Part shown: piece by piece, positions 5,842 to 63,615 of the stretch
Layout of the letters: every line of letters begins with the position of its first letter
How positions within the stretch are numbered: the first letter of the stretch is position 1
From: Branchinecta lynchi
Taxonomy: Eukaryota; Arthropoda; Branchiopoda; Anostraca; Branchinectidae
NCBI GenBank assembly: GCA_023053575.1
Contig: JAKZAP010000022.1
Location: 12,318,518-12,382,517 of the forward strand
Length of the DNA stretch: 64,000 nt
Direction of reading: 5' to 3'
Program-made: the position numbers and the translations under genes
Notes under the pieces: generated by a model
The model's input: only the letters and a program-made list of their open reading frames with translations
Databases searched by the model: none
Told to the model about the DNA's origin: nothing

Positions 5842-6068
5842 AGATAGTCCTTCAGCTCAAGGTGACTGCGAATCATATTGTACTGTGCAAAACGGATAAG
5901 TCAGCTACATTTTATTAGAACAATATTTCGGCCCTTCTTGGCAAGGGTCCTTAAGTTCATTTTCCGGCTTAAGCGGCTTGAGCCTGAAGAGGACCCTTGC
6001 CAAGAAGGGCCGAAATATAGCTCTAGTAAAATGTAGCTGACTTATCCGTTTTGCACCGTCAAATCTGG
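5842..6068. repeat. Ribozyme-bearing inverted-repeat element (family F)
   Basis: The two arms run from the family flank (AGTCCTTCAGC) through TTTTGCAC, AGTCAGCTACATTTTATTAG and the ribozyme region, then back in inverse order to TTTTGCACCGTCAAAT. The intact ribozyme-like core is in the right arm only. Other copies: 155-300, 14620-14815, 30740-30875, 31500-31760, 31765-32140, 35590-35700, 44255-44400 and 63412-63540. Confidence 0.6.
5980..6023 (+). ncRNA. Hammerhead-ribozyme-like motif, subtype 1
   Basis: Stem I GAGC/GCTC; core CTGAAGA (5984-5990); stem II GG(A)CCCTT-GCCAAG-AAGGG-CC; GAAA (6012-6015); then TAT and H17 = A at 6019. All invariant hammerhead positions (C3 U4 G5 A6, G8 A9, G12 A13 A14, A15.1-U16.1, H17) are satisfied, with stem III reduced to essentially one pair. 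Predicted cleavage is after 6019. The inverted partner at 5920-5960 has lost the CTGA core. Confidence 0.6.
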
Positions 6069-7205
6069 CTAATAATTTCGTGGGCTGACAGGACAGGATG
6101 TTTGTGGAGGGTAAATAGATCTGAATGCGAACGAAGGAGTGTATTGATACTATCCTGAACATTAAAATTCGAAACTAACTTACGATTAGGCTACGAAAGG
6201 ATTTAGGAAGATTCATCAGAAACTTACAGTACTCAAAGAAACAGCTTTCAAATCTTTTACATCTTTCTTCCTTAGGTTATGGTAAATTCCGGAACAATTG
6301 TGAATATATGGAAAACAAAAAGCACTATACAACCTTCCGAGCGCATAGCCTAAATATTTTCTATTTGTAGGCCTAGTCTGGATGATGGAAGCTTTTATGA
6401 CAGGATTGCATTCGCAAGTCTGGAATCCAGGCTTCCGTCCCGCATCCATTAGCAAGCTGACTAGGACAATAGCGAAAAATAGTTGCGTTTTCGATAAGAA
6501 TTTTCCGTGTGGTTCTCCTCGCAATTCTCTTATTTCGCGTTTTTGGACTACTCAGATGAAGCGAATTCTCCTTTTCTTGCGTTTAATCGAGAACGAGGAA
6601 AGCCTCGTGCCTTTGCGATTCTGCAGAATCGAGAAGTTGCTCTGATAGTGAATTCTCGATTCTCCTCTCTCTGATCTTCTCCCTGATTGGTCAACAGAGT
6701 GCGGCTGTTCAATATGCATAAACACGTATACCGTGTTGTGGACGAGCTGCCTAATTAGTATTTTTGTCAAAAGCGAGAACGGAGCAGGCAGAGGAGCACA
6801 AATTCGGAACGGATAATTTGGATCGAAAAGGCAACTAATATAACCTACGAAGTGTTCACTTTGGAAACTATGATGTAACCTTTTCGGGACTAGTGAACCT
6901 GGTGGTCCATTTGACTAAACACAATCTGGCGCTTTAATGGCTGGCTGCAGAAGAACGCCATCTTATTCGCAGTAATGAAACGCTTTGTATGATTCCTACT
7001 ACTAGATAGCACTGTATACTATACTGATACTTTAGTGTAAAACGAGACTTTCACAGCATTGGATTGCCGAACTTGTCGTTTTCGTCAGGTACATCATAAT
7101 TACAAAACATTTAATAAGGCGGTTGTACATAATAAAGCAATAGTCAAAAAATGATCAAACAGAATAAAACTCTAGACAATTAAAACATTAAAGGGAAATA
7201 GTTAA
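6069..7205. other. Unassigned, between family F and the LINE fragment
   Basis: Overlapping ORFs of 87-102 codons on both strands (6216-6645) show no domain. Nothing else is recognised. Confidence 0.35.
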
Positions 7206-7612
7206 TCAATTGTTCAAAACTTCAACAAAAGATGGTACAAAGCTCTTTCTGTAGCGATCGGTTCTTGTACAAACAGGGTTAAGAACCGGAACTTTTTGTG
7301 CTACAGCTCGAGGTAGTCGAGGTTTTGGCGGGCAATATGGGGTAGGAAACAGGTGCTCAAAACATGAGTGGGAACGCAGACTGTCCCCGAAACCAGTACA
7401 AAGAGTAAGACGTCGGGCTGCTAAAGTAGGGAGGCGGAACTCTTTGAGGAGGAGGATATAAGGCACTTTGCCCTGGCGGTAGATGATTCTCAAAGCTCTC
7501 TTCTGAATAGTTTCAAGCCTATCAGACTGATCTACTGTCAGGCCAAAGTGCCAAACCGGACAAGTATACTCAAGTAGCGGACGGATGAAAGTAACGTAAA
7601 GGCGGAGAACTC
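7206..7612 (-). pseudogene. Jockey/CR1-like LINE, C-terminal RT fragment
   Basis: The minus strand encodes LYVTFIRPLLEYTCPVWHFG, then LTVDQSDRLETIQKRALRII and a Cys/Pro-containing tail ending RTDRYRKSFVPSFVEVLNN and TGA. This is the well-known post-RT region (IRP-LEY-CPVW, L-IQKRALRII, R-T-RY-SF-P) of Jockey/CR1 elements. The frame is open throughout, but nothing recognisable lies beyond 7612, so it is a 5'-truncated insertion. It is a different clade from the 18.6-kb LINE. Confidence 0.8.
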
Positions 7613-8454
7613 TGTGATTCTCACTGTAGTATCATTTTCAGCAGACATTTCAGAACTTCATATCTGTTTACAGTTTTCCAGATATCGGGTCGAAACTTAC
7701 GGAGCTTGCTGGGAAATTACCCCAGTCAACTTATAAGTATCTGCCGGGCCACAGTGGACTTCCTCGTTTGCTTTAGTTTCTTGTGCTTTTTGTTTTGTGA
7801 AGTGCTTGTTTTGTTTCTTTTATCGATACTCCGCTTTGATTTTTGTAGCGGGTCAAAAAAAAAATATTGTTATGTTATAATATTTTGAAAACTGGTTCAC
7901 ATTGGACTAAATACAAATTTCAAAAATAACAATTTGTTAAATTCTTTGATACAGACCAAAAAATAAGGAAATTGCCATTCTGGAAAGCAGTGAGTTTTTT
8001 AGGTCTCGTCAAGCAGTAAGGAGGCAGATATGTGCTCAATACTATAATATTTAGTGCTACTAAAACAGCCAAAACCGTGGGTTAGTTGTTGAAAGCACAG
8101 CCTAGTTTTAAAGTATTCAAATATTTTTGAACATACTGTCAGTTGAAGAGTAAATAGTGCGAGGGTCCTTTAAGGTAGAATACTGACTGAAATGCCTTGT
8201 TTTACTCCAGAATAAGCTTTGACTTTTTTTTTATAAAGTTAGCCTGAACTAGTAGGAACCTTTAACTTTACAATAAAACCCAATTTTCAGTTAAAACTCT
8301 GGCTATTTGTATTTTTTTTTTTATTCCTTCATTAAAAGTTTGTTTGCCACACGCTATTTAATTTTGCTAAGACAATCGGTTCTGCCATTCTCTCTATCAG
8401 ATTACTGCAAATATAATTAAAATCACATGCTTTTAATTCTTGGGAATTTTGAAA

Positions 8455-8830: not shown

Positions 8831-8952
8831 CCACTAGGGGAGGGAGAGATTGATTTAATAGCAAATCTTCGTTACATGTAGCCAATTCATAGTTTCGTTA
8901 CAATCAGTAAACACACACAAACCTATCCATGTTCACTTGATTGTCCCTTCTT

Positions 8953-9088
8953 CACTGTAAAAAGTTGCAGTATTTGCTACTGGGATTAATCTTATGAGAT
9001 AAAATTAATTCAAATTAGACATAAGATTGTCTTTAAAGAGACAAGATTAATCCCAGTAGCAAATACTGCAAGATTTCTTTTTCCAGTG
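8953..9088. mobile_element. Short foldback MITE with CACTGTAAAAA termini
   Basis: Ends CACTGTAAAAAG and CTTTTTCCAGTG. Immediately inside are perfect 29-bp inverted repeats starting TTGCAGTATTTGCTACTGGG. It shares the terminal motif, but not the interior, with 15096-15400. Confidence 0.65.
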
Positions 9089-9270
9089 TTGCTAACGAGG
9101 CCAAGGGGATCCATCTTATCATCATAATGCAGTAGGCAGTAGCTCTCGAGCACTCGTCTGGCATCTCGCGTTCTGAAAGCACTGTCCTGACATCTGCTGT
9201 TCTGTCAAGCACATTGATAGTACTACGATTCTGCAACGGAAGTAGATGCCGCAGCTACTGTGAACTCAAT

Positions 9271-9581: not shown

Positions 9582-9722
9582 AATCACCCTCGGAGGTTCT
9601 TATGTATAAACCGTACAATGTCCACGTCTCTCCAATCCTCATCATCGAATGTCATTATTAATTCGTACGGACGTCATAAATTCGAAATAAAAAATACACT
9701 CAACAATAAGAGTTAACAGTAC

Positions 9723-10893
9723 TCACTGGAACACCCTTCTAAAACCAACTAAATTGTTTAGAGCCTCGTACTGTTCAGTCGATGATTCCAGTGAGCCTGA
9801 AGGCTGAGACCCCACACCCGATTCCATTTTAGGTCCAGAATGCGCCATCACCCTTTCCCAGGCTGTCTAATAGTCTGCTGTAGCCTTACAGCGCCACCCC
9901 ATCAGCTCTTCTGTCGACGCACCCATCGAAGCCAAAGTAATTGCGCCACCTGCTCGTAAGCTGTGAGGCGTTTCTCCTTCTTCCAAACCGACATAGTTCA
10001 AGCCTGACTTCAAAGACGGATATACGAATAATAAGAGATGGGTTCACTGACAAACGCAGATCCCACTATTTTCTTAAAAAGAAAACCGTAAGAAATGTCA
10101 ACCTTGCAGGCTTTTGCAAACTTTCTGTATTCCTCTAGCGCGTCCACCGGGGATATCTCGCGATCTTCCGTTCGAAATACTCCAAATACATTAGAAGCTC
10201 CCTGACGCAATGTCTTTCCTGCGGTATGATTAAAAAGGACACCTCTATTTCCTGGGAAAAACATCAACTGTTGGCTTTTCGCGTGTGCCAAATCCGACGC
10301 CCGGTCCTCTCCATAGGACTGGATTAAGAAAAATGCCCTGTCCCTACACAAGCGAAGAACTGACACATCATCTCCTTTGTTCAAAAAACTCGATATGCCT
10401 TTTTTGTCATTGAAATTGAGAGTTGCTTAAGCTTCCAGACAAGCATGGGAACTGTCTGTTTGGGCCTTACTGCCGCATTGGAAAGTTGAACCTATACTGC
10501 CTTTACGTGGTCCTTGACCAATTTCGAATCAGTCGGATTTCCGTCCTTTCTGATAGCATGCGAAGGTCCAGTACGGCCCATCTTGTTAAACATTGCCGAC
10601 ATCTGACCTACCATACTATCGAGTGTGCCTGCGGCTAAAATTCGTCGACAACTACAGTCCGTAGCTTCAGTTGCTAAATTTACATACTCCATCTCATGCA
10701 ATACAGTCCTTCCCCTATCCTCTCGTGAAATTAGGAAGTTGAGCACGTCTAGAGGAGAACAGGACCACACTGTAACTTTCATATCTTCTAGAAAGGTCGT
10801 GAAATCGGAAAACAACTTAGATTTCTTAGTCTCATAGCTGGAACTTTCCAGGATAGAGACAAGCTCTAGCCTGCGTTCCTCCCAATTATTCAC
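9723..10893 (-). pseudogene. Tyrosine recombinase (DIRS/Ngaro/Crypton-type), decayed
   Basis: DNA strand-exchange enzyme of a YR-encoding transposon. Four pieces lie in order on the minus strand. 10492-10893 is the N-terminal core-binding part (NNWEERRLELVSILESSS to CRRILAAGTLDSMVGQM and VKDHVKAV), then a TAG at 10492-10494 with the frame continuing (NAAVRPKQTVPMLVW). After a frame change near 10383, 10010-10384 carries the first catalytic Arg (SYGEDRASDLAHA), VLFNHTAGKTLRQG and GVFRTEDREISPVDALEEY. After a second frame change near 10010 comes GLEEGETPHSLRAGGAITL (HxxR box), MGWRCKATADY, a TAG at 9867-9869 in place of the second Tyr of the DYY expected around the catalytic tyrosine, then a tail to TGA 9723-9725. 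No partner RT or RNase H was seen. Confidence 0.75.
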
Positions 10894-10962
10894 CTGAACC
10901 GACCTTGATCAATGGACCATCTGCAAAAGAAATAATTGGAACGATATGTTTTTTTGTTGTTT

Positions 10963-13177
10963 TTATGGCACTTGCCCTTCGGCCAAGTGCCATATAGCGA
11001 TCGCAATTTCTGTCCGTCCGTCGGTCTGTCGGTCTGTCGGTCTGTCGGTCTGTCGGTCTGTCCAGGTTTTGCTAGTTCGGGCACTTCCACATAAGCTAGG
11101 ATGATAAAACTTGGCAGGCATATCAGGGACCCCAAATGATTAAGTTGGAAATAGTCACTTCCCCGATCCGAGCACCGTGGGGGGAGTGGAGGGAGGGGGA
11201 ATCCGGAATCTTGAGGTATTTTTAACTTTTGAACGGGTGATCGGATCTCGATGAAACTTGATATTTGGAACGAACTCATGTCTCAGACGACCCACTTAAA
11301 ATCCGGACCGGATCCGGTGACTTTTGGGGGGAGCTGGAGGGGGCAACCGGAAATCTTGGGAAACGCTATGAGTGGAGGGATCGAGATGAAACTTGGTGGG
11401 AAGACACCTAGCAAACACTGGATACATCGTTGACATAACCGAGCCGATTCGGGCACTGTGGGGGGGAGTGGAGGGAGGGGGAATCCGGAATCTTGAGGTA
11501 TTTATAACTTTTGAACGGGTGATCGGATCTCGATGGAACTTGATATTTGGAAAGACCTCATGCCTCAGACGACCTACTTAAAATCCGGACCGGATCCGGT
11601 GACTTTTGGGGGGAGCTGGAGGGGGCAACCGGAAATCTTGGGAAACGCTATGAGTGGAGGGATCGAGATGAAACTTGGTGGGAAGACACCTAGCAAACAC
11701 TAGATACATCATTGACATAACCGAGCCGATTCGGGTACTGTGGGGGGAGTAGAGGGAGGGGGAATCCGGAATCTTGAGGCTTTTATAACTTTTGAACGGG
11801 TGATCGGATCTCGATGGAACTTGATATTTGGAAAGACCTCATGCCTCAGACGACCTACTTAAAATCCGGACCGGATCCGGTGACTTTTGGGGGGAGCTGG
11901 AGGGGGCAACCGGAAATCTTGGGAAACGCTATGAGTGGAGGGATCGAGATGAAACTTGGTGGGAAGACACCTAGCAAACACTAGATACATCATTGACATA
12001 ACCGAGCCGGTTCGGGTACTGTGGGGGGAGTAGAGGGAGGGGGAATCCGGAATCTTGAGGTATTTATAACTTTTGAACGGGTGATCGGATCTCGATGGAA
12101 CTTGATATGTGGAAAGACCTCATCCCTCAGACGACCCACTTAAAATCTGGACCGGATCCGGTGACTTTTTGGGGGAGCTGGAGGGGGCAACCGGAAATCT
12201 TGGGAAACGCTATGAGTGGAGGGATCGAGATGAAACTTTGTGGGAAGACACCTAGCAAACACTAGATACATCGTTGACATAACCGAGCCGATTCGGGCAC
12301 TGTGGGGGGAGTAGAGGGAGGGGGAATCCGGAATCTTGAGGTATTTATAACTTTTGAACGGGGGATCGGATCTCGATGGAACTTGATATTTGGAAAGACC
12401 TCATCCCTCAGACGACCCACTTAAAATCTGGACCGGATCCGGTGACTTTTGGGGGGAGCTGGAGGGGGCAACCGGAAATCTTGGGAAACGCTATGAGTGG
12501 AGGGATCGAGATCAAACTTGGTGGGAAGACACCTAGCAAACACTAGATACATCATTGACATAACCGAGCCGATTCGGGTACTGTGGGGGGAGTAGAGGGA
12601 GGGGGAATCCGGAATCTTGAGGTATTTATAACTTTTGAACGGGTGATCGGATCTCGATGGAACTTGATATTTGGAAAGACCTCATCCCTCAGACGACCCA
12701 CTTAAAATCTGGACCGGATCCGGTGACTTTTGGGGGGAGCTGGAGGGGGCAACCGGAAATCTTTGGAAACGCTATGAGTGGAGGGATCGAGATGAAACTT
12801 GGTGGGAAGACACCTAGCAAACACTAGATACATCATTGATATAACCGAGCTGATTCGGGCACTGTCGGGGGAGTGGAGGGAGGGGGAATCCGGAATCTTG
12901 AGGTATTTATAACTTTTGAACGGGTGACCGGATCTCGATGAAACTAGATATTTGGAAAGACCTCATGCCTCAGACGACCCACTTAAAATCCGAACCGGAT
13001 CCGGTGACTTTTGGGGGGAGCTGGAGGGGAGAACCGGAAATATTGGAAAACGCTATGAGTGGAGGGATCGAGATGAAACTTGGTGGGAAGACACCTAGCA
13101 AACACTAGATATATCATTGACATAACCGAGCCGTGCCTACTCGTAACAAGTGCCATATGAGCTCGTAGCTCTTGTTT
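10963..13177 (-). mobile_element. Family A element with expanded 281-bp array
   Basis: In minus orientation it starts AAACAAGAGCTACGAGCTC (13177) and ends with the hairpin TTGGCCGAAGGGCAAG (10963-10993), preceded by the GACGGACGGACAG and (GACA/GACC)n microsatellite at 11010-11062. The interior is the tandem array listed separately. The outer bases match the copies at 726 and 44592. Confidence 0.6.
11160..13130. repeat. Tandem array of 281-bp units, about 7 copies
   Basis: The start of the unit (GAGCCGATTCGGG) recurs at 11441, 11723, 12004, 12285, 12566 and 12847 and ends at 13128, a spacing of 281-282 bp. Units differ by a few substitutions, so the array was homogenised recently. Single diverged units of the same sequence make up the cores of the other family A copies. 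Confidence 0.9.
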
Positions 13178-14590: not shown

Positions 14591-14686
14591 TATATAGGCG
14601 GATAATAAGATAAATATTCCTTCATCCCAAGCTGACTGCGAATCATATTTGATAGTGCAAAACGGAAACGTCAGCGGAATTTATTG

Positions 14687-14730
14687 GAGCTATATTTCGG
14701 CTCTTCTTGGCAAGGGTCCTCTTCGGGCTC
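14687..14730 (-). ncRNA. Hammerhead-like motif, core mutation
   Basis: Stem I GAGC/GCTC, stem II and GAAATATA are kept, but CTGA is CCGA (U4 changed), so catalysis is not expected. Flanks 14620-14815 match the rest of the family, including TTTTGCACTATCAAAT. Confidence 0.45.
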
Positions 14731-15095
14731 AAAACCGCTCAGTTGGAAAAACGAACATGTGGGAGAACCAGATGAAATTCAGCTGACGTATCCGTTTTGC
14801 ACTATCAAATACGAATAAATAAGTTTCTGTTGACTATTTACTATCGCAAATATCGCCAAATACTACGTTGTAGTCTCGGGGCCGGAGACAAGAAAAACAC
14901 ATCCATCGACTTGTCTTCAGGCATGAGTTCTGCGAAGTTTTGCAAAATGCAATATCGTGTTCATTAATCCGGCTTTAGTTAAAAACATTCCGTGAAGACC
15001 CCGGAGATTATAGACCATTACCATCTTCTAGAAAGTAAGGCCGCCCCAAAAACACATTGAGGAGAATTCATATGACCGAGATCTGAGGACGGCTG

Positions 15096-18717: not shown

Positions 18718-21700
18718 TTATTTAACTAATACACTCTTTAAGAATTGGCATATTTTAAGTATCTTAGCTTTATTTTTTGTTTCAAGAATATCGGGGAACT
18801 TGATAGTATACCCATTAAGAAAGTGTCTCCTGAGGTCTGAGAGTTGCTCGCATTCAACCAAAAAATGGCCCTCTTCCTCTGTATTAAAGCACAGGGGGCA
18901 TTCTCGCTTACTATTTGGGATCTTAAAATCCCAATTACTCCGACCACGTACTGGCAGGCAGTTCGCTCGAAGCTGAAACCACAGGCGCAGGCTCTCCGCC
19001 GGTAGGTATAGCTTGAAGTAAAATTCCATTCCGAAAATCTGCTTAACTTCTTTGTAGTATTTTAATGTATCTGAATTTTGCGTCCGTTCGTACCAAGCTT
19101 GAACCTCTTGTTCTTCTAACACTCTTGTGAATTCACGTATGAAGCTGGTCGGGTCTCCTTCCGGCCCTCTTCCTTCATTCCATATGTAAGAAAGACCTGC
19201 ATTATCTAAAAGTTTTTTAACTTGGAGCGGCCATGAATTTCGCTTTTTCGTCGATAGTGCTTCCAGGTAAGCTTGCTTAAGCAGTCTCTTCTCTGGTAAA
19301 GATATAAGTTTTGCCCAGAACCTTATTATTTGGGTTAATCTATGTTTCCTTAGGGAAAAAAGTCCCAGATCCCCTTTTACTGCCTGGCTGTGGGTCGTCT
19401 GGTGTAAACCAATAAGTCTCTTGAAATACTGAAGCTGTATTGTCTCTAGTTGGGGGGCAGTTTCGAATCCCCAAAGCTCTGCACCGTAGTGAATTGTTGG
19501 CGTCACTTTCGACATGAAAATTTGTTTATGAATTTTTATGTGCTTAATTCCTGATAGCGTCCCGTTACGAAGTATTGCGCTTGTCACTCCTCTTCCCCTA
19601 TTTGCCATCTCTTTTACATGGTATTTCCATCCTCCTACTTCTGAAAAAATTATCCCCAGATATTTAAAGCTAGGCTTTGTAGACACTTGCTCATGTCTAT
19701 AATAAAATTTTGGCGGTTCTGTCTCATTTCTTTCTTTCTTGCCGAATATCACAACTACAGTTTTCTTAACATTTAGCTTTAGCTTCTTTTTCTCCAAATA
19801 TTCTGATAGGATATCCAGAAGGGTTTGAAGCTCTTGTGGTGACTTTGCTATTAATGCTGCGTCGTCAGCAAATAGCAGTAGTGATATGACTAAGTTTCCG
19901 AGTCGCACGGTTGGTGCCCAACGCTTTTCGAAAAACTCCTTCATATCATTTATGAAAATGCAGAATAATCTTGGAGAGAGCGCGCTTCCTTGCTTCACCC
20001 CGCTATTCCAATCAAATGGGCGGGAAAATCCCTTGTGAAATATTTTTACTACTGCTTTAGATCCAATATACATTCCAGAAATTAGTCTAACAAAAAATCG
20101 AGGTAACCCTATTCTTATCATTTCTACGCACAGCAGCACTCTATCCACTTTATCAAATGCCTTTTCAAAATCTATGAAAGCAACGTAAAGTTTATCTTTT
20201 CCTTTCCCATATTTCTCAGTTAAAGTCTTCAATATAAATGCACGATCTATTGCGTTATAACCTTCCCGGAAACCTCCTTGTTCTTCCTTCATAACGTCAT
20301 TACTTTCCAACCATCGAGCCAGCCTACTATCCAAAATCTTTTCTAAAACTTTACTTATGCACGGAATTAGCGATATCGGTCTGTAGTTCGCGTGGACATT
20401 GGGGTCTCCTTTTTTGAAAATGGGGATTAGTATAGATGTTTTCCAAGCATCTAGCCATTCTGACGAGCTAAGTATCGCGTTAAATAGAAGTAACAATAGG
20501 GGCATGAGTGTTGGCCAGCACTTTTGGTAGACGCGCGTGGGAATTCCGTCAGCCCCGGGTGCTGAACCTCCTTTCATATGCTTGAGCGATTCTTCAATTT
20601 CTTCTCTCGATATCTGCCGTAGCAGCTCATCATCCGACTCTTTCTGAGGCCTAATTACTTCCTCATTCAACTGTTTAAATTCATTTTCCTGCCACTCCTT
20701 TAGATCATTTTCCCCCATATCTAATGCGAAATATTCAGGCCACGTTTCTGGCTCCGGTGCGTTACCGTGCTTCTTTTCTGTCGTATTATTAACTTTCCTC
20801 CAAAATAATTTCATGTCTGACTTGCTAAATGCCTTCAGTATACCCTCCTTCTCAATCAGTTCTCTTTCATTCTTCTTCCTTTTTAAAAGTTTTTTGTATG
20901 TTTTTCTCATCTCTTTAAATCTTTCGTTAAGACCCTGTTTTTTTTATGCTTCTTTTTCTCTCCTCGCTAATTCATACATTATTTCCACGCTAGTTTTTGC
21001 ATTTCGGCATTCCTCATCAAAAAAAGGTTTATTTTCTTTCTTTTGCTTTGCTAGGATTGGTTCTACAAATTCCCAAATTAATTCATTCATACTCTCTGAC
21101 AATTTTTCCGGGGACGTACTTTCAACCAGCATTCGGCTGCTTCGGGACAACATTTCATCGCTACTAAAAGCCTGAATTATTTCTCTTTCTTCTTGCTGTG
21201 TCCATTCTCTTCGGAGCTGTGGAAGGGGGGCCCTATCTGCTTGTCTTTTTAATGGACTATTCACATGTGGAGCCCGTGAAATAAGGTTAGGCTGATGTGT
21301 GATCACTAGTTTCACAGCAAGGTGGTCAGAACCCACCAAATTCAGAATCTCCACGTCCAGAGATTCAAGCGATAATCGAACGTCCACCAGTACGTAATCA
21401 ATAATACTATGCTTAACTCCCGAAACACAAGTGAAATCACCTATCAATGAATCCGTCCCGAACCTCCCATTCCCAATTACTAGGCCCATGTCAGAGCACA
21501 ATGCGAGCAACTTTCTACCCCACACATTAAGTTTACGAGACGCGTCTTTGCTTGTCCTTGGTAAAGTAAAAACTTGGGGGACAACACCTGATATTCCTGG
21601 AATCTTTATATTTTGAACTTCCTGCTCATCACTCGTATATGCATTGAAGTCACCCAACATAATTATCTTATAAGTAAAAAACTTTGTTTTCATCTCCTCT

Positions 21701-22104
21701 ATTTCCTGTTCTATAATATTCCATGTATCTTCATTTCGATACGAGCTGTTCTGTGGTGGGATATACACGGATCCTACCAACATCTTTTCTCCATTTAAAC
21801 ACTCTACCTTAATCCAAATCAAATTTTCTGACCTGCTCGGTTGCCGTATCGCTCTCTTAAAGGCACCATCCTTTATCAAAACTAAAATCCCACCGTAAAC
21901 TCTTTGGTTTTTAGATGGTTCTCTACACGCACTTTCTAATCTAAATCCTGGGGCATTTAATACAATCTCTTTTGGGAGCCAAGTTTCAATCAATGCAACA
22001 AAGTCATATTTCCTAACGTCACTTAATATAATCTCCCGTCTAACACCCAGGCCTTGCACGTTCCAAGAAACAAAACTAGTATTGTTCGTACGGCCTTCGT
22101 CTTG
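18718..22104 (-). pseudogene. LINE ORF2: APE endonuclease, reverse transcriptase and CCHC, one in-frame TAA
   Basis: The frame opens directly after the ORF1 TAG and runs 1128 codons before its stop. Endonuclease motifs: SWNVQGLG (about residue 13), the IETWL glutamate, LGDFNA (about 151) and GSDHLAV (about 259). A TAA at 20944-20946 (residue 387) sits between ARREKEA and KKQGLNERF with no frame change. RT motifs follow: NYRPISLIP, VAFIDFEKAFD (first catalytic Asp about 645), GVKQGSALSP and LLFADDA (about 745-748). A C-X2-C-X7-H-X4-C knuckle (CPLC...H...C) lies about 40 residues before the end. No ATG exists in frame until 21781-21783, after the first catalytic endonuclease motif. The TAA probably inactivates this copy; everything else looks intact. 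Confidence 0.85.
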
Positions 22105-22107
22105 CTA
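22105..22107 (-). promoter_or_regulatory. In-frame TAG between LINE ORF1 and ORF2 (candidate leaky stop)
   Basis: The ORF1 stop is TAG followed by CAA GAC, with ORF2 continuing in the same frame (QDEGRTNNTSF, then SWNVQGL). UAG CA is a context known to favour readthrough in some viral RNAs. Alternatives are reinitiation at a non-AUG codon, or a recent nonsense mutation in a single-ORF element. Confidence 0.4.
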
Positions 22108-23232
22108 TTCCTCACTATACTCGCTGGCAGGGGGTGGCAACTCAGAGGTGCGTTCCATGTCCGCATCAAGTTGGAAATCGTTTGAACTCCCGTCCGGGAA
22201 GTTAAGTCTATGGTAATCGCTGGGTTGTTGGAAGCTTCGACGTGGGGATTGCCACTTGGTATTCCGTGCTTTGACATCCCGAACGCTTGTGCGGTACCGG
22301 TCTTCCGGACTGATAATCGAATCCAGCTTCCTGGATCTTTTATCACTCCCTACACCCGAGCTAACACCCTGGGCATAGCTAAAATCCCCACCCTGGCTGC
22401 CACTTGGATGCACAACTTCACTTATAGTGTTATTGGGTATCTCCCTTCTCACTGTTTCCGACCCTTCTGGGATGGTTCCTGGTACCGGTTGCCTCACCTC
22501 AACTACGGTTGATGCCGTGCTACTCGCGTCACTCTCCCCTAGATTTTCGTTTGGTTCTCTATTGCGGAATGTCAGCTGGGGTTCTACTTTTCGGGGGCGG
22601 TTCTCTTCTCTCACTTTTTCATCGTTTGCGTCGTACAAAAACATCCTTCCATCTATGTAAAGTCGCGTTCCTCTAAGCCGTACCTCGCGACCTTCTCTAA
22701 TTGCTCTACTCATTACCGGCTTTAGCTGTTCACGGGCGTGACGCTCAGCGATTGTATAATCAGGCGCAACAGCTACACCGTCTCCTTGGAGTTTCCGGCC
22801 ATTTCGCAGAATGAAGTTACGCAAGTCCACTGAGTTGAATTTTATCAGTATCGGTCCTGTGCGAAATCGGACCGAGTCTCTTATTTCGTGTCGCCCTAAT
22901 TTAAGTTCGGGAAAACGCGAATTGAAGTATGTAATGACTTCCACAGAGAGCGGGATTCGTGATGGGTTCGTTTGGTGGAAATTGAACATCATAAGGTTTG
23001 CGCGTTTGGCTTCTGCTTCCAAAAACTCTATCCTATTTTTTGACTCGTTTAATGCTACTTTCATCCGCGCCATGTCGTGAGCCAGTCTTTCATCTGTCGA
23101 CTTCCGGTTCTGTATATATTGCTGCACATCGTTCATTTGCAGCTGAATTGACTTAATGTGTTCTGACAGTGGAGGGATCAAATCCAGTTTAAAGTTTATT
23201 TCCTCGAGATACTGCCGTGATGCATCAGACAT
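22105..23232 (-). CDS. LINE ORF1 protein: coiled coil plus RRM-like RNA-binding domain, 375 aa
   Basis: Nucleic-acid-binding chaperone of the retrotransposon, expected to coat the element's RNA. The ATG at 23230-23232 (MSDASRQYLEEINF) is preferred over an upstream GTG in the same frame. Residues about 5-75 are helical and heptad-like (coiled coil). Then comes an RRM-like block with RANLMMFNF and TGPILIKFNS strands, followed by DYTIAERHAREQLKPVMSRA and RLRGTRLYIDGRMFLYD, resembling the C-terminal domain of L1-type ORF1 proteins. The last 160 residues are Ser/Pro/Arg-rich and probably disordered. No CCHC knuckle is present. It ends with a TAG (22105-22107) in frame with ORF2. Confidence 0.8.
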   Translation of the reverse strand: MSDASRQYLEEINFKLDLIPPLSEHIKSIQLQMNDVQQYIQNRKSTDERLAHDMARMKVALNESKNRIEFLEAEAKRANLMMFNFHQTNPSRIPLSVEVITYFNSRFPELKLGRHEIRDSVRFRTGPILIKFNSVDLRNFILRNGRKLQGDGVAVAPDYTIAERHAREQLKPVMSRAIREGREVRLRGTRLYIDGRMFLYDANDEKVREENRPRKVEPQLTFRNREPNENLGESDASSTASTVVEVRQPVPGTIPEGSETVRREIPNNTISEVVHPSGSQGGDFSYAQGVSSGVGSDKRSRKLDSIISPEDRYRTSVRDVKARNTKWQSPRRSFQQPSDYHRLNFPDGSSNDFQLDADMERTSELPPPASEYSEE

Positions 23233-23489
23233 TTTTTTTTCTTTTCTGATGTACTTGCAGTCACTAAAGAACAGGCTGATCGGCACCTTTCCCGTCACTT
23301 ACTTGGCCGAAACTCTCACTCCGACGCGTACAATCTTTCCTGTATATTCCAAAAATGTTATTAGCCTCGAAATGCTCACAGATCCGTATCACTTCTCTCT
23401 TAAATAACAAGTTCACCTGGCGCGCTCTCTTCGGAGGTGCAACCGGTTTGACTGCTGCCAGGCGACACCTCTGGTCTTGTTTTTTTTTA

Positions 23490-31490: not shown

Positions 31491-31572
31491 GATTTTAAAT
31501 TTTCCTTCAGCCCAAGCTGACTGCGGATCGTGTTTGATAGTGCAAAATGGATACGTCAGCTGCATTTTGTTA

Positions 31573-31616
31573 GAGCTATATTTTGGTCCTTCTTGGCAAG
31601 GGTCCTCTTCAGGCTC
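31573..31616 (-). ncRNA. Hammerhead-like motif, degenerate
   Basis: GAGC/GCTC stem I and CTGAAGAG are intact, but GAAA is AAAA. The inverted partial partner at 31717-31741 (GAGCCAGAAGAGGACCC) is broken inside stem II. Confidence 0.4.
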
Positions 31617-31822
31617 AAAGCCGTTCAAGTTGGAAAAAGGAACTTGTGGGAAAACAAAATTTGTTGGAAAAGGAACTTGTTGGTTTTCCCACAAGTTCGT
31701 CTTTCCAACTTGAACGGCTTTGAGCCAGAAGAGGACCCTTAAATATTCTTTGAGCCCAAGCTTACTTTGAAACAGTTATTCAAACAATGTGTACAACGGA
31801 TATGTCAGCTACGATTCTTCAT

Positions 31823-31866
31823 CAGCGATATTTCGGCCCTTCTTGGCAAGGGTCCTCGTCAGGCTG
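31823..31866 (-). ncRNA. Hammerhead-ribozyme-like motif, subtype 2 (inverted partner)
   Basis: The minus strand reads CAGC, CTGACGA, the GGACCC...GGGCC stem-loop, GAAATATC and GCTG, all core positions intact. It faces the plus-strand copy at 31968-32011; together they form a palindrome at about 31777-32056. Confidence 0.6.
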
Positions 31867-31967
31867 TCAATCCTCTGGTTCAACTTCGGGGAACGAAATT
31901 ACAGGTTTGTAATTTTTGAAGGGATTACAGGTTTGTTTCTTTCCCCGAATTTGAACCAGAGGATGGA

Positions 31968-32011
31968 CAGCCTGACGAGGACCCTTGCCAAGAAGGGCCG
32001 AAATATCGCTG
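31968..32011 (+). ncRNA. Hammerhead-ribozyme-like motif, subtype 2
   Basis: CAGC (31968-31971), CTGACGA, stem II, GAAA, TAT, C17 at 32007, GCTG (32008-32011). It is followed 46 nt later by a second, 5'-truncated subtype 1 copy (32057-32096) in the same orientation, giving a tandem arrangement. Confidence 0.6.
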
Positions 32012-32056
32012 ATGAAGAATCGTAGCTGACGTATCCGTTGTAAACATTGTTTGAAT

Positions 32057-32096
32057 AAAAGAGGACCCTTGCCAAGAAGGGCCGAAATATAGCTCT
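32057..32096 (+). ncRNA. Hammerhead-like motif, 5'-truncated
   Basis: Retains AAGAGGACCC...GGGCCGAAATATAGCTC but has lost CTG and the 5' strand of stem I. It lies directly downstream of the intact motif at 31968. Confidence 0.5.
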
Positions 32097-32629
32097 AATA
32101 AAATTAAGCTGACGTATCTGTTTTGCACTATCAAATAAGAAATGAATGTGATATTTTTATTTCATTTTTCGGCAATAGCTTACATTTCTAGTTGGTGAGT
32201 GTTTCAAGCCTAGAGGGACAAGCACATACAGACATCACAAATCCGAAAGAATAAGTTCATTCTATGAAATCGACTATCCCAGGATAACGGAGAAACGAAG
32301 TAACGCATTTTTATCAAGTTTTCAGGAATATTTAAGTGAATAAGTGATATGTTACTAGACGTGTTGGACCCTAAACCTATTCGGTTAAACTTTAAGATTG
32401 TGAGTTAAGACTAAAGATCCTCGACCTTCAACCCACCCTATACTTTTTTTTCATCACGCTTTCCATTTGTCCACAACCCATCCATTAACTAGATAGGTTT
32501 CAAATCCGATTAGTAACAGATGCTGGTCAGCAAGTGGCCTTAACCAACACTCGTCTTGCTAAAACGTCTTTTCGCTTTTGCTGAGGTAACAGGGATTTTC
32601 TTGGCCAGCTTGAAAGCTTTCCATACTTC

Positions 32630-51040: not shown

Positions 51041-51059
51041 TCTCTTTCTCTCTCTCTCT

Positions 51060-51300: not shown

Positions 51301-52344
51301 TAATATAGGCACTTCTAGGTCTCTCGTCACTTCCATTATCCTCTAGCGAAATTAATCCCGTAGCTAATTAATCCATTGAAAAGGAGGAAAATAAATAGCC
51401 TTTGCCGGAAGCAGAATCTTCAGGCAAAATGAAACGGAATTCTTCGCGGACATGGAATCCTTTCTAGCTTGAACATACTAGAAAGAACTATCTTTTTCCA
51501 TCATCGTCCTCTTCAGACGGTTAGGTGAAAAGAGGCATTACGAGACCACGACTACCTCATTAGCTTTTAAAAAAATATTTAGTTCGCCCCTTAATTTGAA
51601 ACCCCTCCGCTAAATATGCAGCTATGGGGCCCATCTACGAACTCGACCTATCCCTTGACTCGATGAGTTCTCACACCCAAGTTTTTTCAAAATATCTCAT
51701 TCCCTTCGAGAGTTAACGTGCTGACATACGAAGGGGCAAAAGCGGACATAAAGAAATTCTATTTACCGAGTCAGATTCTATTTACATAAGATGAAATTAT
51801 ATTTACCGAGTGAGATTCTATTTACATAAGATGAAATTCTATTTACTGAACCAATTTTATTTACATGAAATCAAAATTCTATTTACTTAACGAAAATATA
51901 TTGACTTAGCAAAAATTTATTTATTTTTAACAAACCTTTTTTTTTCGACCAAACTATTTGACTTAGCAAAAGTTTATTTAACAAACTTTCTTCTTATTTT
52001 TTTTTCTTTCCATTGTCTGTAAATTCAAAACATGCCCAGTAAAAAAAAAAAAAAATCTGTAAACGCAAAATTTTTCTAAGTAAATAGAAATTGAACCGCT
52101 GTAAATAGAAATTCATGTTGTAAATAGAATTTCGCGCTGTAAATAGAATTTGAAATTCCAGATACCAATACGCTCGAAAGCCGATACACAAGCCGGTAGT
52201 TTGTGTTATCGATACAAGTTCGTTTTGAATTCAGTATACTAGGTGGATCTGCTTAAGTGATGACTGCTGAGCTGATGGACTTTTTTACAGGAAGAGGAAG
52301 ATAACCAAGGGTGAAGTAGGCAAATTTTCCAAATCCAAAACAAC

Positions 52345-52505
52345 AGCAGTGTATTTAGAAAGAAGTGAGTAGAGGTGGAGGAGATTAAAAACTGCATCAG
52401 CAGTGGCCTCAGGCACCTCAGTTTAGCAGAAACTGCAAAGAGGATGGGATGGTCATCTAAAACAGTAGTAGGAGACTCAAGGAAAGTGGACTCGCCAAGA
52501 GCAGC
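52345..52505 (+). pseudogene. Helix-turn-helix coding remnant, left arm of foldback
   Basis: The plus strand reads VEVEEIKNCISSGLRHLSLA, ETAKRMGWSSKTVVGDSRKV, then a TGA. It is the inverted duplicate of the right-arm remnant; GCACCTCAG and SLAETAKRMG are shared. Confidence 0.45.
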
Positions 52506-52526
52506 CTGACTATCAGGTATAGCAGA

Positions 52527-52888
52527 CAGGGGCGTCACAACTGTGTCAGACAGGACGCCGTCAATGATGACGTGATTTTGAAGCGAGTTTCGGGGACTGA
52601 AACTTCCTTCCAACCTTTCTAAGCCAAAATGTTAGGGAGGGGGGACAAGGCATTAACCAACTGGCTGGTAATTTTACCGACTATTTTGGCAGAAAAACGA
52701 CTGTTTTCAAGAAAAAAACGTAAAAAAAATCGACTGATTTTCGGAAAAAAGACTGTTCTGACGAAAAATTGACTGATTTTCAGAAAAACTACTTTTCATG
52801 AAAAAAATCAAATGTTTTGATGATAAATTGTGGCGCTGGCTCTTTCTGGCGCCATTCCCCTCCCCCCCCCCCCCTTGTGACGCCCCTG
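52527..52888. mobile_element. hAT-like MITE at the centre of the foldback, without direct target duplication
   Basis: Ends CAGGGGCGTCAC and GTGACGCCCCTG. The interior matches the MITEs at 24671 and 36197 (AATCGACTGATTTTC). Its flanks are inverted, not direct, repeats (AGCAGA / TCTGCC). Near its left end it carries about 50 bp resembling dispersed repeat E (GGACGCCGTCAATGATGACG). Confidence 0.6.
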
Positions 52889-53097
52889 TCTGCCATACCT
52901 GATAGTCAGGCTGCTCTTGGTGAGTGTACTTTCCAAAGTCTCCTACTACTGTTTTAGATGAGCATCCCATCCTCTTTGCAGTTTCTGCTAAGCTGAGGTG
53001 CCTAAGGCCACTGCTGAGATAGTTTTTAATCTCCTCCACCTCTACTTCCCTGGCATACACAACTGTTGCTTTGGAAAATTTGCCTACTTCACCCTTG
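52889..53097 (-). pseudogene. Helix-turn-helix coding remnant, right arm of foldback
   Basis: The minus strand reads KGKITKGEVGKFSKATVVYA, REVEVEEIKNYLSS, then HLSLAETAKRMGCSSKTVV (HTH-like) and GDFGKYTHQEQPDYQVWQTG. A TTTTTAACAG acceptor-like site precedes it. It could be the N-terminal DNA-binding part of a transposase; no DDE domain is present. The left-arm copy is more decayed. Confidence 0.5.
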
Positions 53098-53689
53098 GTT
53101 ATCTTCCCCTTCCTGTTAAAAAGTCCATCCGCTCAGCAGTCATCACTTCAGCAGATCCACCTAGTATACTGGATAAAAAACGAACTTGTATCGATAACAC
53201 AAACTACTGGCTTGTGTATCGGCTTTCGATCGTATCGGTATCAAGAATTTCAAATTCTATTTACAACGTGAAATTATATTTACAGCGCGTTCGATTTCTA
53301 TTTACTTAGAAAAATTTTGCATTTACGGATTTTTTTTTTTACCGGGCATGTTCTGAATTTACGAGCAATGGAAAGAAAAAAAAAATAAGAAGAAAGTTTG
53401 TTAATAAATTTTGGCTAAGTCAAAGAGTTTGGTCGTAACAGAATTCTGATTTCATGTAAATAAAATTTGGTTCAGTAAATAAAATTTCATCTTATGTAAA
53501 TAGAATCTCACTCGGTAAATATAATTTCATCTTATGTAAATAGAATCTGACTCGGTAAATAGAATTTCGTTATGTCCGCTTTTGCCCCTTCGTACTGACA
53601 GACGGACAACTTTTGCGATGTCATATGTATCCCTCCACTTACGTTTTTGGGATCCCAAAAACTGTTCCGGCTTCAACCAAGTTCTATTG

Positions 53690-55977: not shown

Positions 55978-56447
55978 TGTGCGGATCTCATATTCGTGCT
56001 AAGAATGCTGCTAGAAGAGTGCAACGAAAAAAGGAAAATGCTCTACCTAGTCTTCATTGACTTCGAAAAACCCTTTGACTCCATCTACCGTGCTACACTC
56101 TGGAGAGTGCTCCGGTACTATGGCATACCGGAAAAACTCGTAAGCCTGATAGCAGCCTTTTACGAAGACACGGAATGCTGTGTCCGTACCCGCGACGGCA
56201 ACACCAGATACTTCCAAATTATGACGGGCGTGAAGCAAGGGTGCGTTCTGTCTTCGCTGCTGTTCGTCCTGGTCATCGCCTACGTTCTAGGAAGATGTGA
56301 AGGATACGGCATTGACATCGGGGATGGCAGAAAAGTAGGAGACATAGACTTTGCCCTATCGAAAGCAGATTTAAACGACTCGACTCGTCGTTAGAGACGG
56401 GCCTACGACTGAAGCTGTGCAGAGCCAAAATTAACACAAAATTTTAA
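55978..56447 (+). pseudogene. Reverse transcriptase fragment lacking the FADD catalytic box
   Basis: Reads ADLIFVLRMLLEECNEKRK, LYLVFIDFEKPFDSIYR (first catalytic Asp present), LRYYGIPEKLVSLIAAFYED and MTGVKQGCVLSSLLF. After DIDFA, where DD-containing sequence is expected, the frame continues LSKADLND and stops at 56394. Shortly after, in another register, ETGLRLKLCRAKINTK resembles the RT thumb, so roughly 20-30 codons around the second catalytic aspartates were lost by deletion. The family looks like endonuclease-RT LINEs of RTE/CR1-like type and is distinct from the other three LINEs here. Confidence 0.75.
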
Positions 56448-57247: not shown

Positions 57248-60200
57248 CTGTAAATAAAAGATGGTATTTAAGGACAGACTTCAGCGCAAACGGAGTGAGT
57301 AGCCTACACACGGAAGTTTTACTATAAAAACTATGGATGTCACTGTCACAGAGAGAAGAATACAGACTAATTATCGGTCGCTTGTGGTGAACCAAATATT
57401 GGGTAGAACTCCGGAATCCGTCAGTCGTCAAGTGCTCTCATTCAGCGAACTTGTCTAACCAGCGCTGTGATAATAAACCTGTTTGACTGGATTTTGTTTC
57501 TGACTGGATTTCTTCCTCTTTTTCGTTTCTGATTGAATTTTGTGATAATATTGGATGATGACTACAATCCAGATGAACGGATAGTCCACAGCCGAAGCTA
57601 GTCTATATTGGATGATGCCTACAGTCCGGATGAACGGATAGCCCACAGCCGAAGCTAGTCAAGAATGTTTTTGCACGTTTTCCTAAATTACCTTGTTGCT
57701 ATGCGGACCCGCTCCCCCCAAATACTTAGATTATACAGCAAGAAAACTCACCTATAAACAGGTGCTGATGGTCGGTGATAAAGAGGTGCTGGTGCGTGAT
57801 AAACGGGAGCTGGTGCGTGGTAAACGGGTTTTGGTGCGTGATAAACGGGAGCTGGTGCGTGATAAACAGGTTTTGGGGCATGGTAAACAGGCTTTGGTGC
57901 GTGATAAACGGGTGCTGGTGCGTCATAAACGGGAGCTTGTGCGTGGTAAACGGGTTTTGGTGCGTGATAAACGGGAGCTGGTGCGTGGTAAACGGGTTTC
58001 GTTGCGTGATAAACGGGAGCTGGTGCGTCATAAACGGGGGCTGGTGCGTGATTAACGGGGGCTGGTGCGTGGTAAACCGGTTTTGGTGCGTGATAAACAG
58101 GTGCTGGGGCGTGATAAACCGGTTTTGGTGCTTGATAAACGGGTGCTGGGGCTGGATACGCAGCTGGTGCTGGTCCAGGATACGCATCTGGCGCTGATGC
58201 AACGTATGCAACTGAGGCTGGTGGAGCATAAGCAGCTTGGGAAGGTGCGGCCCACTGAGTTTGCTCTTGCGCTGCCGTGTCCCAAACAGATTGTTGCGGA
58301 ACTGCTTGTGGTATGGCCCATACAGCGGGTTCAGGTGCTGCCGAGTCAGAGAAAGATTGCTGTGGAGCTGCTTGGTGTGCGGCCCATACAGATGGTTCAG
58401 GTGCTGCCGTGTCAGAGAAAGATTGCTGTGGAGCTGCTTGTTCTGCGGCCCATACAGCTGGTTCTGGTGCTGCCGTGTCAAAGAAAGCCTGTTGTGGAGC
58501 TGCTGCTTGTGCGGTAAAAACGGACGGTACTTGTGCTGGCTCAATGTTGGCGACGGGGGCAGCATTAGCGCCAGGGGCAAAGTTGGCGCTAGAAAAAAAA
58601 TAAACGTGTAAACTTTAAGATGCGCTGGGTGCACTTCGACGGATCATTTGCTCTGCCTTTGTTTTCATTTGTGGGCTTATAACTCTTCTTTTATAACCTC
58701 ATCTGCCCATCCAACTTAATTTATAAAGATTATTTTATATTCTTCAATTTCAACTGAAAAGCCAAATTCTCTTGTTCGGATCTTGTTTTAAACGCAATAA
58801 TTTATTTCGGTTATCTAGAGATAACTGGTGCGAATAAACGTTCAGGATTTTCCGGACGGAAGTTTTGTGCTTTCATCACAAAATCTTAACTTTAAAGCGG
58901 ACCACAAGAAATGTTTTGCTACCACAAACACAATTATAACCATCCTTACTGCCGCTATGAATTTAACAAACAAAAAAAAAGAACGCCCTCAAACAATGAG
59001 CAAATTAAAAAAACAAACCAAATTTCCTAGGTTTGAAATAATTCGGTCTGGACTGAATCTTAGCCGATTATCCGGGACAGCCGTTATGGCACGTATTGAT
59101 TCAAGGACCAAAATAATTATTCCATCTATTACTCCAAACTGTTTATTACGGTACAAATACAAATACATTAACAAACCTAGACCAGTCTGGTACTCCTGAA
59201 GTCATACAAAACAGCAACCTGGCAATCAAGTTCAAATTTAAATAAACTAGTGGCTTCCGATCAGTAAGAGAAGCTAAACAGAATGCTTGGATTAGGTCTT
59301 AAAAAAAAAGGACTTCCAGTCCGGCAGCCCAACCTTGATCGTTTGACCCCAGGATAAGACCAAATTCACAGTTAAGAACGGGAAAATCTGAGCAATGGAC
59401 TAATGCATTTTCATTGTCATGTCATTCATAAGATGGAGAGCTTTAATAAGTCAGTCCGAAACTTTGGAGTTTTACCGTGAGATTAAGAAGGTGTTTGGGC
59501 CTGAGTTTTATTTTAAAATGAATCTACCTCAAAATATTTTGAAGTTGTGAATCCAGGCTAGAGCTAATTCCCTCCCCCCGTTTGGTAGATTTAGAGTTTT
59601 TGATAGGCATAGGACTGGTCCAGATGTCAGGTATAATTGCCAACTTTGCAAAGCAGGGGTAGAGGAAAATATGGACCACTTTCTCAATCGATGCCAGGAG
59701 CTTTCGGAGTTAAGGGGATCTTATTTTAAGGGGAGTGTTTTGCTTCCTCCGGATATCCTGGATAGTACTTCGGAAAGGGTTATAAAAAAGGTGTGCGAAT
59801 TTATCGACGGAGCGCTGAAGCTAAGAGCGATTAAGCTTAGTAGTGAGGCTTCATAGCCGTAGGACAATATTGTTGTTGTCTTCTTTTGTAATGTGTATTG
59901 TTGTTGTCTTATGTATATGGCCCCTGGGCTTTTAAATACACTTATTATTATAAGATGGTGGAGGAGTACGACGAAAGATTTTCAGAAATCGCTGAGCAGT
60001 TTTGATTTCTTTGACATTTGTAATGAAGTAGTCATTCAAGTAGACACTGCTTGCAAATCAAAATTATAATAGGCTTTTTGTAGTCCTTTAGGCAAGTGAA
60101 AAGTTGGCTTTTTTGGTAAAAAAAAAAGGTGCCTTTTTAAGAATAGAAATCTTATATAAAAAGAAAAGAAATAAAACTAAAACTACTGACGAGCAAATCT

Positions 60201-61810: not shown

Positions 61811-61951
61811 CTAAAGTAAAAGCAAACATTATTTAGCTTGAACCGCCAAAGTTGTCAAATAAGAGATCATAATTCAGTTACAAATCAGAAGAAACAATAG
61901 CTAACTCATATAGCACTTGCAGGTAATATGTCTTTCAGTAAAGGGTCTGGA

Positions 61952-62004
61952 CATACAAATGGAACAGCTCGTACATGACATGTACTAGTTGTTCCATTTG
62001 TATG
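61952..62004. repeat. 53-nt hairpin next to the hAT-like element
   Basis: CATACAAATGGAACA pairs with TGTTCCATTTGTATG around a GTACATGACATGTAC centre. It abuts the G-run before the element at 62015. A degraded family A 5' end (AACTCATATAGCACTTGCAG) lies just before it at about 61903. Confidence 0.6.
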
Positions 62005-62014
62005 TGAGGGGGGG

Positions 62015-63615
62015 CAGGGGCGTCCCGAGGGGTGGGTGGGGGTGTTGGGCGCAGCGTCCCCCCTACGTTTTGGGCATTCGGTCAAATTTTCGCCGAAGGC
62101 GAAAATTCGGTCAAACGGGCATAGCGGCGAAGCCGTGATGCCCTTTTCATAAAATCTTGTGTCCCCGCATTTCGAAATTGGGTGATTTAATGTGTTTATT
62201 GGTTCCCCTTTCTTTATCGAATTGGCTATTTCACCCAACTTTTGCTCGGTGATCTAACCTGTTTATTTGGTCTCATTCGTTACGAATTTGGTAATTCACC
62301 GGACTTCTCAAGTCCGTATCTGCTGTATTGCATTCCGTCAGTCCATTTCTGAATTCGGTCATTAATCAGATTCTTTTGGATCAGATTCATGACCGAATTC
62401 GATAATTCATCCAGCTTTTGTTCAGTCTGCATCGATTTCGCCGCATTCGGTCCTTCCTTGTGTAAATTCGGTGATTTAACCTGTTTATTCGGTCTCATTC
62501 TTTACCGAATTCGGTAACTCCGTCGCATTCGGTTGGTCTATTTCTTAATTCGTGCCATTAATTTTTACTAGACTTGCCGAATTTGGTTGTTTTAGGTGGT
62601 TCTAACAAGAGTTTTATTTTTCGGTATACTACGAATTCATTATTTGCTTCAACCCAGTTACCGAGTTGGGTAATTTAAATGGCATTTATTTAGCTCTCGG
62701 TCTTTACCATTTACGGTAGCTTCACCGGGTTGCTGTTTGTTTTTTACTTCTTAGGATTGCAATACTTCAGGAATAAGCACGTCTCTTGACGTGAAAACTA
62801 GCCTACTTTCGTTTGCTGTAAATTCCGAACAAATGTACTTCGTATCCTGTTTACCCTGGATCGCCCTTTCGTCGCCAGACAACTCTGGGCTGAATAGGTA
62901 ATCTTGGGATCGCAGATAGCACTTTTATCATCAGTGTTTCCACAAAGTTTCGCCCGCGGTGCATTTAGCAGTTTTTACTAGGTAGACAAAGGTTGCCTTA
63001 TTTAGTTGGCCGTTTGAGTCTTAGAATTTCCGGGGGATATAAATATGTTAAAATCTAGAATTTGTATTGAACTGAACTGAATTAGATAAATGTTTAGTTG
63101 TTAGGCGGATTAAACAAATTTCGCCTGCGGCACATTAATTAATCATGGGCACAGCCATTAGCGACGTTGTCGCTATGCAGCAACGCCATTTTTGCCATTG
63201 TTTCAAATCCTGTTGGCTAAACTGAAAGGTCTTCCAAAGGTAAAAGGCTAAAAAAACAGAAGCGGAAAAGCGTGACAACGCGTCAATTTTTCTCTTTAGA
63301 CTTGTTTGTCTGTACTCTGCACCTTTTTAGGTTGTAGCTTCATGAAGGCAACTCGCTGTGTTCTTACAACTTTTTTTAATAAATTCAGTAAAAATCAGGT
63401 AGCAGTTTGGTAGTTTCAGCCCAAGCTGACTGCGAATCAAGCTTGATTGGCTTGAGCCTGAAGAGGACCCTTGCCAAGAAGGGCCGAAATATAGCTCGAA
63501 TAAAATGTAGCTGACTTATCCGTTTTGCACAATCAAATAATCAGGTAGCAATTTGGTCAATTTTACCAGATGCGCCCCCCCCCCCCCCAATGAAGAAAGG
63601 CTCGGGACGCCCCTG
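62015..63615. mobile_element. 1.6-kb non-autonomous hAT-like element
   Basis: Termini CAGGGGCGTCCCGAG and CTCGGGACGCCCCTG are perfect 15-bp inverted repeats. Flanks are G-runs, so a duplication cannot be confirmed. The interior has repeated ACCGAATTCGGTAA-like segments (62270-62600), a palindromic CGCCGAAGGCGAAAATTCGG stretch, and a family F copy with an intact ribozyme-like motif (63412-63540). No transposase ORF. Confidence 0.65.
63454..63497 (+). ncRNA. Hammerhead-ribozyme-like motif, subtype 1
   Basis: GAGC/GCTC stem I (63454-63457, 63494-63497), CTGAAGA, stem II, GAAA (63486-63489), TAT, A17 at 63493. It lies inside the hAT-like element 62015-63615, and its 5' flank is the inverted family sequence TTCAGCCCAAGCTGACTGCG. 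Confidence 0.6.

Follow-up and report, generated by a model that had tools for sequence, protein, structure and literature searches.

Within 64,000 nucleotides of the genome of the anostracan Branchinecta lynchi (contig JAKZAP010000022.1, positions 12,318,518 to 12,382,517; hereafter the window), we find a dispersed family of nine short inserts, family F, recognised by arm alignment and by reading of their flanks and built around a hammerhead ribozyme-like motif. Family F probably derives, as a non-autonomous form, from a Penelope-like retroelement (PLE), and its arms would be pseudo-long terminal repeats (pLTRs) transcribed into self-cleaving RNA. We favour this reading because the order and orientation of the parts, the one-sided tail, the inversion and three target duplications match the published structure of Penelope. 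An earlier note on this DNA had proposed that the family is the terminal repeat of a PLE or retrozyme, or a non-autonomous derivative of one; what the inverted arms, the tail and the duplications uphold is the non-autonomous PLE derivative, and no partner with a reverse transcriptase (RT) and a GIY-YIG endonuclease was seen in the window.

The hammerhead motif and its two forms

The 44-nt motif at the centre of the family has the make-up of a minimal type I hammerhead, with a stem I of 4 bp, a stem II of 7 bp with a bulged A, and no real stem III. We scanned both strands of the window with a strict descriptor (stem I of at least 4 bp, CTGANGA, stem II of at least 4 bp with at most one bulge, GAAA, a short linker or stem III, UH and the second strand of stem I), and exactly five sites satisfied it. 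They coincide in position and strand with the five copies that the earlier note had called intact:

5980 to 6023, plus strand: S1 hammerhead, intact, in insert E2; predicted cleavage after 6019
30750 to 30793, plus strand: S2 hammerhead, intact, in insert E4; predicted cleavage after 30789
31823 to 31866, minus strand: S2 hammerhead, intact, in the long arm of insert E5S2; predicted minus-strand cleavage after 31827
31968 to 32011, plus strand: S2 hammerhead, intact, in the short arm of insert E5S2; predicted cleavage after 32007
63454 to 63497, plus strand: S1 hammerhead, intact, in insert E8; predicted cleavage after 63493, stem I extendable to 6 bp (63452-63499)

The internal order given in the note recurs in all five: CTGANGA, a stem II with a bulged A (GG-A(bulge)-CCCTT/AAGGG-CC), GAAA, TAT, and A or C before stem I. 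Across 150 dinucleotide-preserving shuffles, scanned on both strands, the descriptor matched one small-type and three any-type sites in total, a figure to be read with the descriptor having been composed when the motif was already known and with the five sites, as one family, counting as one event. Tolerating one core mismatch added the copy at 237-280 (minus strand) alone. At the level of sequence and secondary structure, the hammerhead reading holds.

A BLAST comparison of the motif arms with the window yielded 13 motif-bearing arms, the split arm 31722/32057 being counted as one. The CUGANGA and GAAA core between stems I and II, with a UH cleavage site, is intact in five of them, and the remaining eight are degenerate or truncated. 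All five places previously named as degenerate copies are real and lie on the minus strand, except 32057 (plus), which turns out not to be a separate copy; the list was also incomplete, as it lacked the truncated or degenerate arms at 5882-5951 (minus), 44274-44349 (minus), 44354-44384 (plus) and 31722-31740 (plus).

The five intact motifs are not independent observations, because they comprise only two distinct 44-mers, S1 (5980 and 63454) and S2 (30750, 31823 and 31968). These differ at four positions: N7, H17 and both bases of the outer stem I pair, which goes from G-C to C-G. All four differences fit the fold. Of 1,000,000 random four-substitution variants of S1, 12,531 were hammerhead-competent, and 3,370 of these carried a compensatory pair. 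The covariation reported earlier for stem I amounts to one compensatory change, that of its outer pair, between two distinct sequences.

The surroundings of the motif diverge far more than the motif itself. A comparison of five S1 arms with three S2 arms gives an identity of 0.86 for the motif, against 0.19 for the 15 columns directly upstream and 0.47 for the spacer directly downstream. Beyond the spacer lies a second block in which the subtypes are alike (GCTGAC..TATCCGTTTT, identity 0.80), followed by a stretch at 0.23, and the tail ends are again similar by eye (..GTCAGCTTGGGCTGAA in S1, ..GTCAGCTTGGGCTCAA in E4). The identity calculated for this terminal block, 0.39, is distorted by gaps and by tailless arms and was set aside. 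As far as a single subfamily split can indicate, these sequence comparisons support selection on the hammerhead.

Paired arms, one-sided tails and target duplications

The nine inserts, with the subtype of each where one was assigned, are as follows:

170 to 308, minus strand: E1, S1, a single long (tailed) arm, its hammerhead at 237-280 degenerate with an altered G12; a second arm was not recognised
5851 to 6064: E2, S1, inverted arms, the long arm on the minus strand (motif truncated at its 5' side, match 5882-5951) and the short arm on the plus strand
14621 to 14811: E3, S1, a long arm on the minus strand with a degenerate motif at 14687-14730 and a motif-less short arm on the plus strand, ending at 14811
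30711 to 30868, plus strand: E4, S2, only a 5' remnant left of the short arm, the long arm with an intact hammerhead
31506 to 32137: E5S1, S1, a long arm on the minus strand (degenerate motif 31573-31616) and a short arm on the plus strand (31680-31740 and 32071-32137), split by E5S2
31741 to 32058: E5S2, S2, nested in E5S1, both arms with an intact motif
35604 to 35687, minus strand: E6, an old, diverged single arm with a degenerate motif, 77-78% identical to S1 queries
44263 to 44384: E7, S1, two degenerate inverted arms with decayed ends
63412 to 63538: E8, S1, a long-arm remnant (tail, minus side) from 63412, then a short arm with an intact hammerhead

Pieces of two arms are present in seven of the nine (E2, E3, E4, E5S1, E5S2, E7 and E8) and stand head-to-head in every case, so that their upstream sides meet in the middle of the element and their downstream sides face outward; E1 and E6 have a single arm only. 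Four inserts contain the five intact motifs, with E4 and E8 keeping a single hammerhead because much of one arm is missing. The six complete elements measure 127-318 bp, and no insert contains a long open reading frame (ORF).

The two arms of an element do not end alike. In all six inserts with both ends readable (E2, E3, E4, E5S1, E5S2 and E8, the comparison leaving out E1, E6 and E7), one arm is the shorter, and its partner extends roughly 24-35 nt further. The end of the short arm is almost constant in position (..ATCAAATA in S1, ..TTTGAATAA in S2), and the long arm reaches ..CAGCTTGGGCTGAA or beyond in S1 and ..AGCTTGGGCTCAA or beyond in S2. In E4, E5S2 and E8, the arm ends adjoin a target duplication or sit a few bases away from it.

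Target duplications were evaluated for E1, E2, E3, E4, E5S2, E6, E7 and E8. E4 lies between exact 13-bp copies (30698-30710 and 30872-30884), E8 between 19-bp copies with one mismatch (63393-63411 and 63539-63557) and E5S2 between exact 12-bp copies of AAGAGGACCCTT (31729-31740 and 32059-32070). Each of these scores was equalled by 0 of 300 shuffles, the places searched for E4 and E8 having been picked after the repeats had been spotted by eye. E5S2 sits inside the hammerhead of an E5S1 arm: once its flanks are joined, they align to the other E5S1 arm in one ungapped alignment across the junction, with 115 of 126 positions identical. As this insertion splits the arm that begins before 31740, the copy at 32057 has no 5' stem I, and the head-to-tail neighbours at 31968 and 32057 are likewise a product of the nesting.

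Inverted arms on short elements without long ORFs also describe a foldback or MITE-type (miniature inverted-repeat transposable element) DNA transposon, in which a transposase would act on the arms as terminal inverted repeats, and the likeness to a hammerhead would be incidental or borrowed. Also in its favour, the long arms have a common terminus near GCTGAA or GCTCAA. We nevertheless demoted this explanation, and consider it improbable, because the arms end unequally, one being some 24-35 nt longer in six of six readable elements, and because the duplications of 12, 13 and 19 bp have no one fixed short length; a hammerhead of such quality, moreover, rarely arises by chance.

Still less probable is a metazoan retrozyme, that is, a non-autonomous element spreading via small circular RNAs produced from tandem type I hammerheads. 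In the available text of PMC7229834, retrozymes have type I hammerheads, and the 127-318 bp of family F come near their size range, but they are described there as tandem repeats with canonical hammerheads, whereas the arms of family F are inverted and dispersed and its motif is without stem III. Since the copies are inverted rather than tandem, and the only head-to-tail neighbours (31968/32057) reflect a nested insertion, we ruled out the retrozyme as the main explanation. Between the two contexts that the earlier note had left side by side, the PLE is therefore supported and the retrozyme fits less well.

Predicted folding, coding capacity and the Penelope reading

Under the preferred reading, a PLE RT with a GIY-YIG endonuclease, encoded elsewhere, would copy the RNA of an arm. 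Two adjacent sites downstream of the hammerhead would each serve as a start, giving the short and the tailed ends, and the inverted arm may arise by self-priming or second-strand synthesis. In what is the weakest step of this scheme, the ribozyme would release unit-length RNA by cutting after H17, probably in dimeric form or when bound by the PLE protein.

Folding of the motif in isolation agrees with a hammerhead. Stems I and II form in the minimum-energy structure of all five 48-mers that hold intact motifs, and the 8-nt strand GAAAUAU(A/C) occupies the expected place of stem III in each. In a double hammerhead, two molecules share one stem III, and a self-complementary AUAU is present in all five intact copies. 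Cleavage as a dimer is possible on this basis, though the energy model gives no support for it.

Several observations weigh against a self-cleaving, PLE-derived family. By nearest-neighbour energies, pairing of two molecules through an AUAU stem III is unfavourable by 3.0-3.6 kcal/mol for the three copies computed, and the best homodimer prediction is a different, extended pairing rather than a shared AUAU stem III. The covariance-model comparison that the earlier note had suggested scored at background: no Rfam hammerhead family was found at E ≤ 5 in the whole window or at E ≤ 10 in 5960-6050, although whether Rfam accepts PLE variants devoid of stem III was left unchecked. Of the 13 motif-bearing arms, eight are damaged or truncated. 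In folds of the four whole elements containing the five intact motifs (E2, E4, E5S2 and E8), the hammerhead has a pair probability of 0.00 in E2 and in E5S2, on both strands, being buried in the arm-arm duplex, and E4 retains stem II only (stem I 0.01, stem II 0.95). The short end of E2, E3 and E5S1 is defined solely by where similarity stops, and five inserts have no significant target duplication, shuffles doing as well in 13 (E1), 248 (E2), 61 (E3), 272 (E6) and 148 (E7) of 300 cases. Finally, RT and endonuclease are absent from all inserts, and no PLE RT or GIY-YIG ORF was seen among the window's ORFs of at least 110 amino acids (21 in number, 10 of them scanned with Pfam), where decayed PLE pieces could remain.

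As the predicted arm-arm duplex buries them, three of the five intact motifs appear poor candidates for cutting within whole-element transcripts, with E4 doubtful; E8 alone folds as a hammerhead in the whole-element prediction (stem I 0.91, stem II 0.98). Ribozyme activity, if any, would matter in an autonomous source or in copies with a single hammerhead. The arm-arm hairpins also attract Rfam matches below the gathering scores (MIR2863 at 31850-31984 and mir-4776 at 44329-44384). As for the missing enzymes, the lack of an RT inside the inserts makes it likely that they are non-autonomous.

One alternative leaves the origin of the arms untouched and disputes only the ribozyme part of our explanation, not the element part: the arms would derive from a PLE, and the motif would no longer cut, or never need to, and would persist because the copies are young or because it serves the RT as a hairpin. 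The burial of the motif in E2 and E5S2 and the eight broken arms are in keeping with it, as is the hammerhead of an Anolis PLE, which in the accessible part of PMC11167929 is not cleaved without protein and whose mutants were still inserted in vitro. The same part of that source also refers to a PLE hammerhead that had earlier been seen to cleave itself at 3-25 mM Mg2+, and in family F the flanks of S1 and S2 have fallen to 0.19-0.47 identity against 0.86 in the motif, with changes that respect the catalytic core. We therefore regard a non-cutting motif as rather unlikely.

A possible coding frame runs into the S1 tail. In the long arm of E5S1, the best-kept S1 long arm (minus strand), an ATG lies 11 nt past the predicted cut and starts a frame that spans 11 codons up to the short end and 20-22 up to the tail end. 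This is only suggestive, because eight of the nine S1 arms read have a stop at codon 2 (five) or no ATG (three), leaving the frame open in one; the ATG is missing from all three S2 arms, and about 20 open codons can occur by chance. Exact-pattern scans for relatives of the family found none in bacterial and archaeal genome contigs or in viral contigs.

The RT and endonuclease matches that Pfam did return belong to a non-LTR retrotransposon (18718-23298, minus strand) and to an RT fragment (55996-56394). Separate frames of the retrotransposon encode an RT (PF00078), an endonuclease (PF03372) and, upstream, a protein that Pfam does not match. Among the 120 relatives listed, of 3286 in the database, for this RT (18718-20910), the best animal-named ones are three Artemia franciscana proteins, with 49-53% identity over 43-52% of the query, and eight others outscore them, one labelled as a Psychroflexus metagenome-assembled genome. 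Taken alone, these matches would make a branchiopod crustacean or one of its relatives the likely host.

Other features of the window include two close ORFs at 10010-10893 (minus strand), one matching the ALOG domain (PF04852, E = 3.3e-15), which we take to be possibly a piece of a recombinase-type element. A satellite unit of about 281 bp occurs in seven tandem copies at 11179-13165, with a more distant copy at 14175, and a 21-bp minisatellite at 57706-58251 keeps several reading frames open. Long inverted repeats outside family F lie at 51727-53594 and 2956-3882 (arms of 110-215 bp, 93-98% complementary), and a hairpin of about 147 nt at 8950-9096, with sub-threshold Rfam matches to WsnRNA46 and MIR6445, is perhaps another foldback element.

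Comparison with known systems

Minimal hammerheads in PLE pLTRs, and inserts with inverted pLTRs, are already known. Lunse, Weinberg and Breaker are said to have reported in 2017 small hammerhead variants that are associated with PLEs, have a diminished stem III and cleave as dimers; family F would resemble these in its probable PLE association and diminished stem III. In the available portions of PMC7761336 and PMC6155905, PLE hammerheads are minimal type I forms without helix III or tertiary contacts. Schistosoma W-elements (PMC8490949) and metazoan retrozymes (PMC7229834) are similar in being repeats with minimal or type I hammerheads but, unlike family F, form satellite-like or tandem arrays, and the portions available describe no one-sided tail.

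In the accessible open-licence literature we saw no miniature PLE family described that is built purely of pLTRs and carries the ribozyme in both arms, and nothing relevant on hammerheads in Artemia or on Penelope in the Artemia genome assembly. We tentatively suggest that family F may represent a separate lineage of MITE-like Penelope miniatures in a crustacean-type genome, consisting of little more than a head-to-head pair of hammerhead-bearing pLTRs and diverged into S1 and S2 subfamilies that would move in trans and be able to insert into each other's ribozymes, with the ribozyme, the downstream start-site block and the tail end under constraint. Such a two-arm element shows which parts may suffice for copying: the subfamilies resemble each other in the ribozyme, in the block that precedes the two RT end points and at the tail end, but not in the drifted stretches between. 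From the inverted arrangement one would also expect a conflict, in that pairing between the arms conceals the ribozyme.

The closest structural parallels are with PLEs themselves. According to the available part of PMC11167929, a PLE protein begins reverse transcription at two adjacent internal sites and thereby generates a tail, a signature called unique to PLEs. The hammerhead of the Poseidon PLE of Anolis carolinensis, PAc, lies upstream of these start sites, and family F likewise has a hammerhead of stems I and II upstream of the two proposed start sites that would define its tail; the PAc ORF opens at stem II, ahead of the cleavage site, unlike the candidate ATG of family F, 11 nt after the predicted one.

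Inserts of Penelope in Adineta vaga, as far as PMC3846280 is accessible, contain an inverted pLTR with a shorter 5' inverted copy and an optional 31-bp tail on one inverted pLTR, head-to-head arms being the commonest arrangement, and target-site duplications of 8-10 bp flank some copies and are absent from others. The pLTR there carries codons 1-12 of the ORF, or 22 with the tail. Family F differs from these inserts in having no RT or endonuclease ORF and duplications of 12, 13 and 19 bp, and shares with them head-to-head arms of which one is shorter, the one-sided tail, the presence of target-site duplications and, in E5S1, a frame of 11 and 20-22 codons, close to the 12 and 22 of the A. vaga pLTR.

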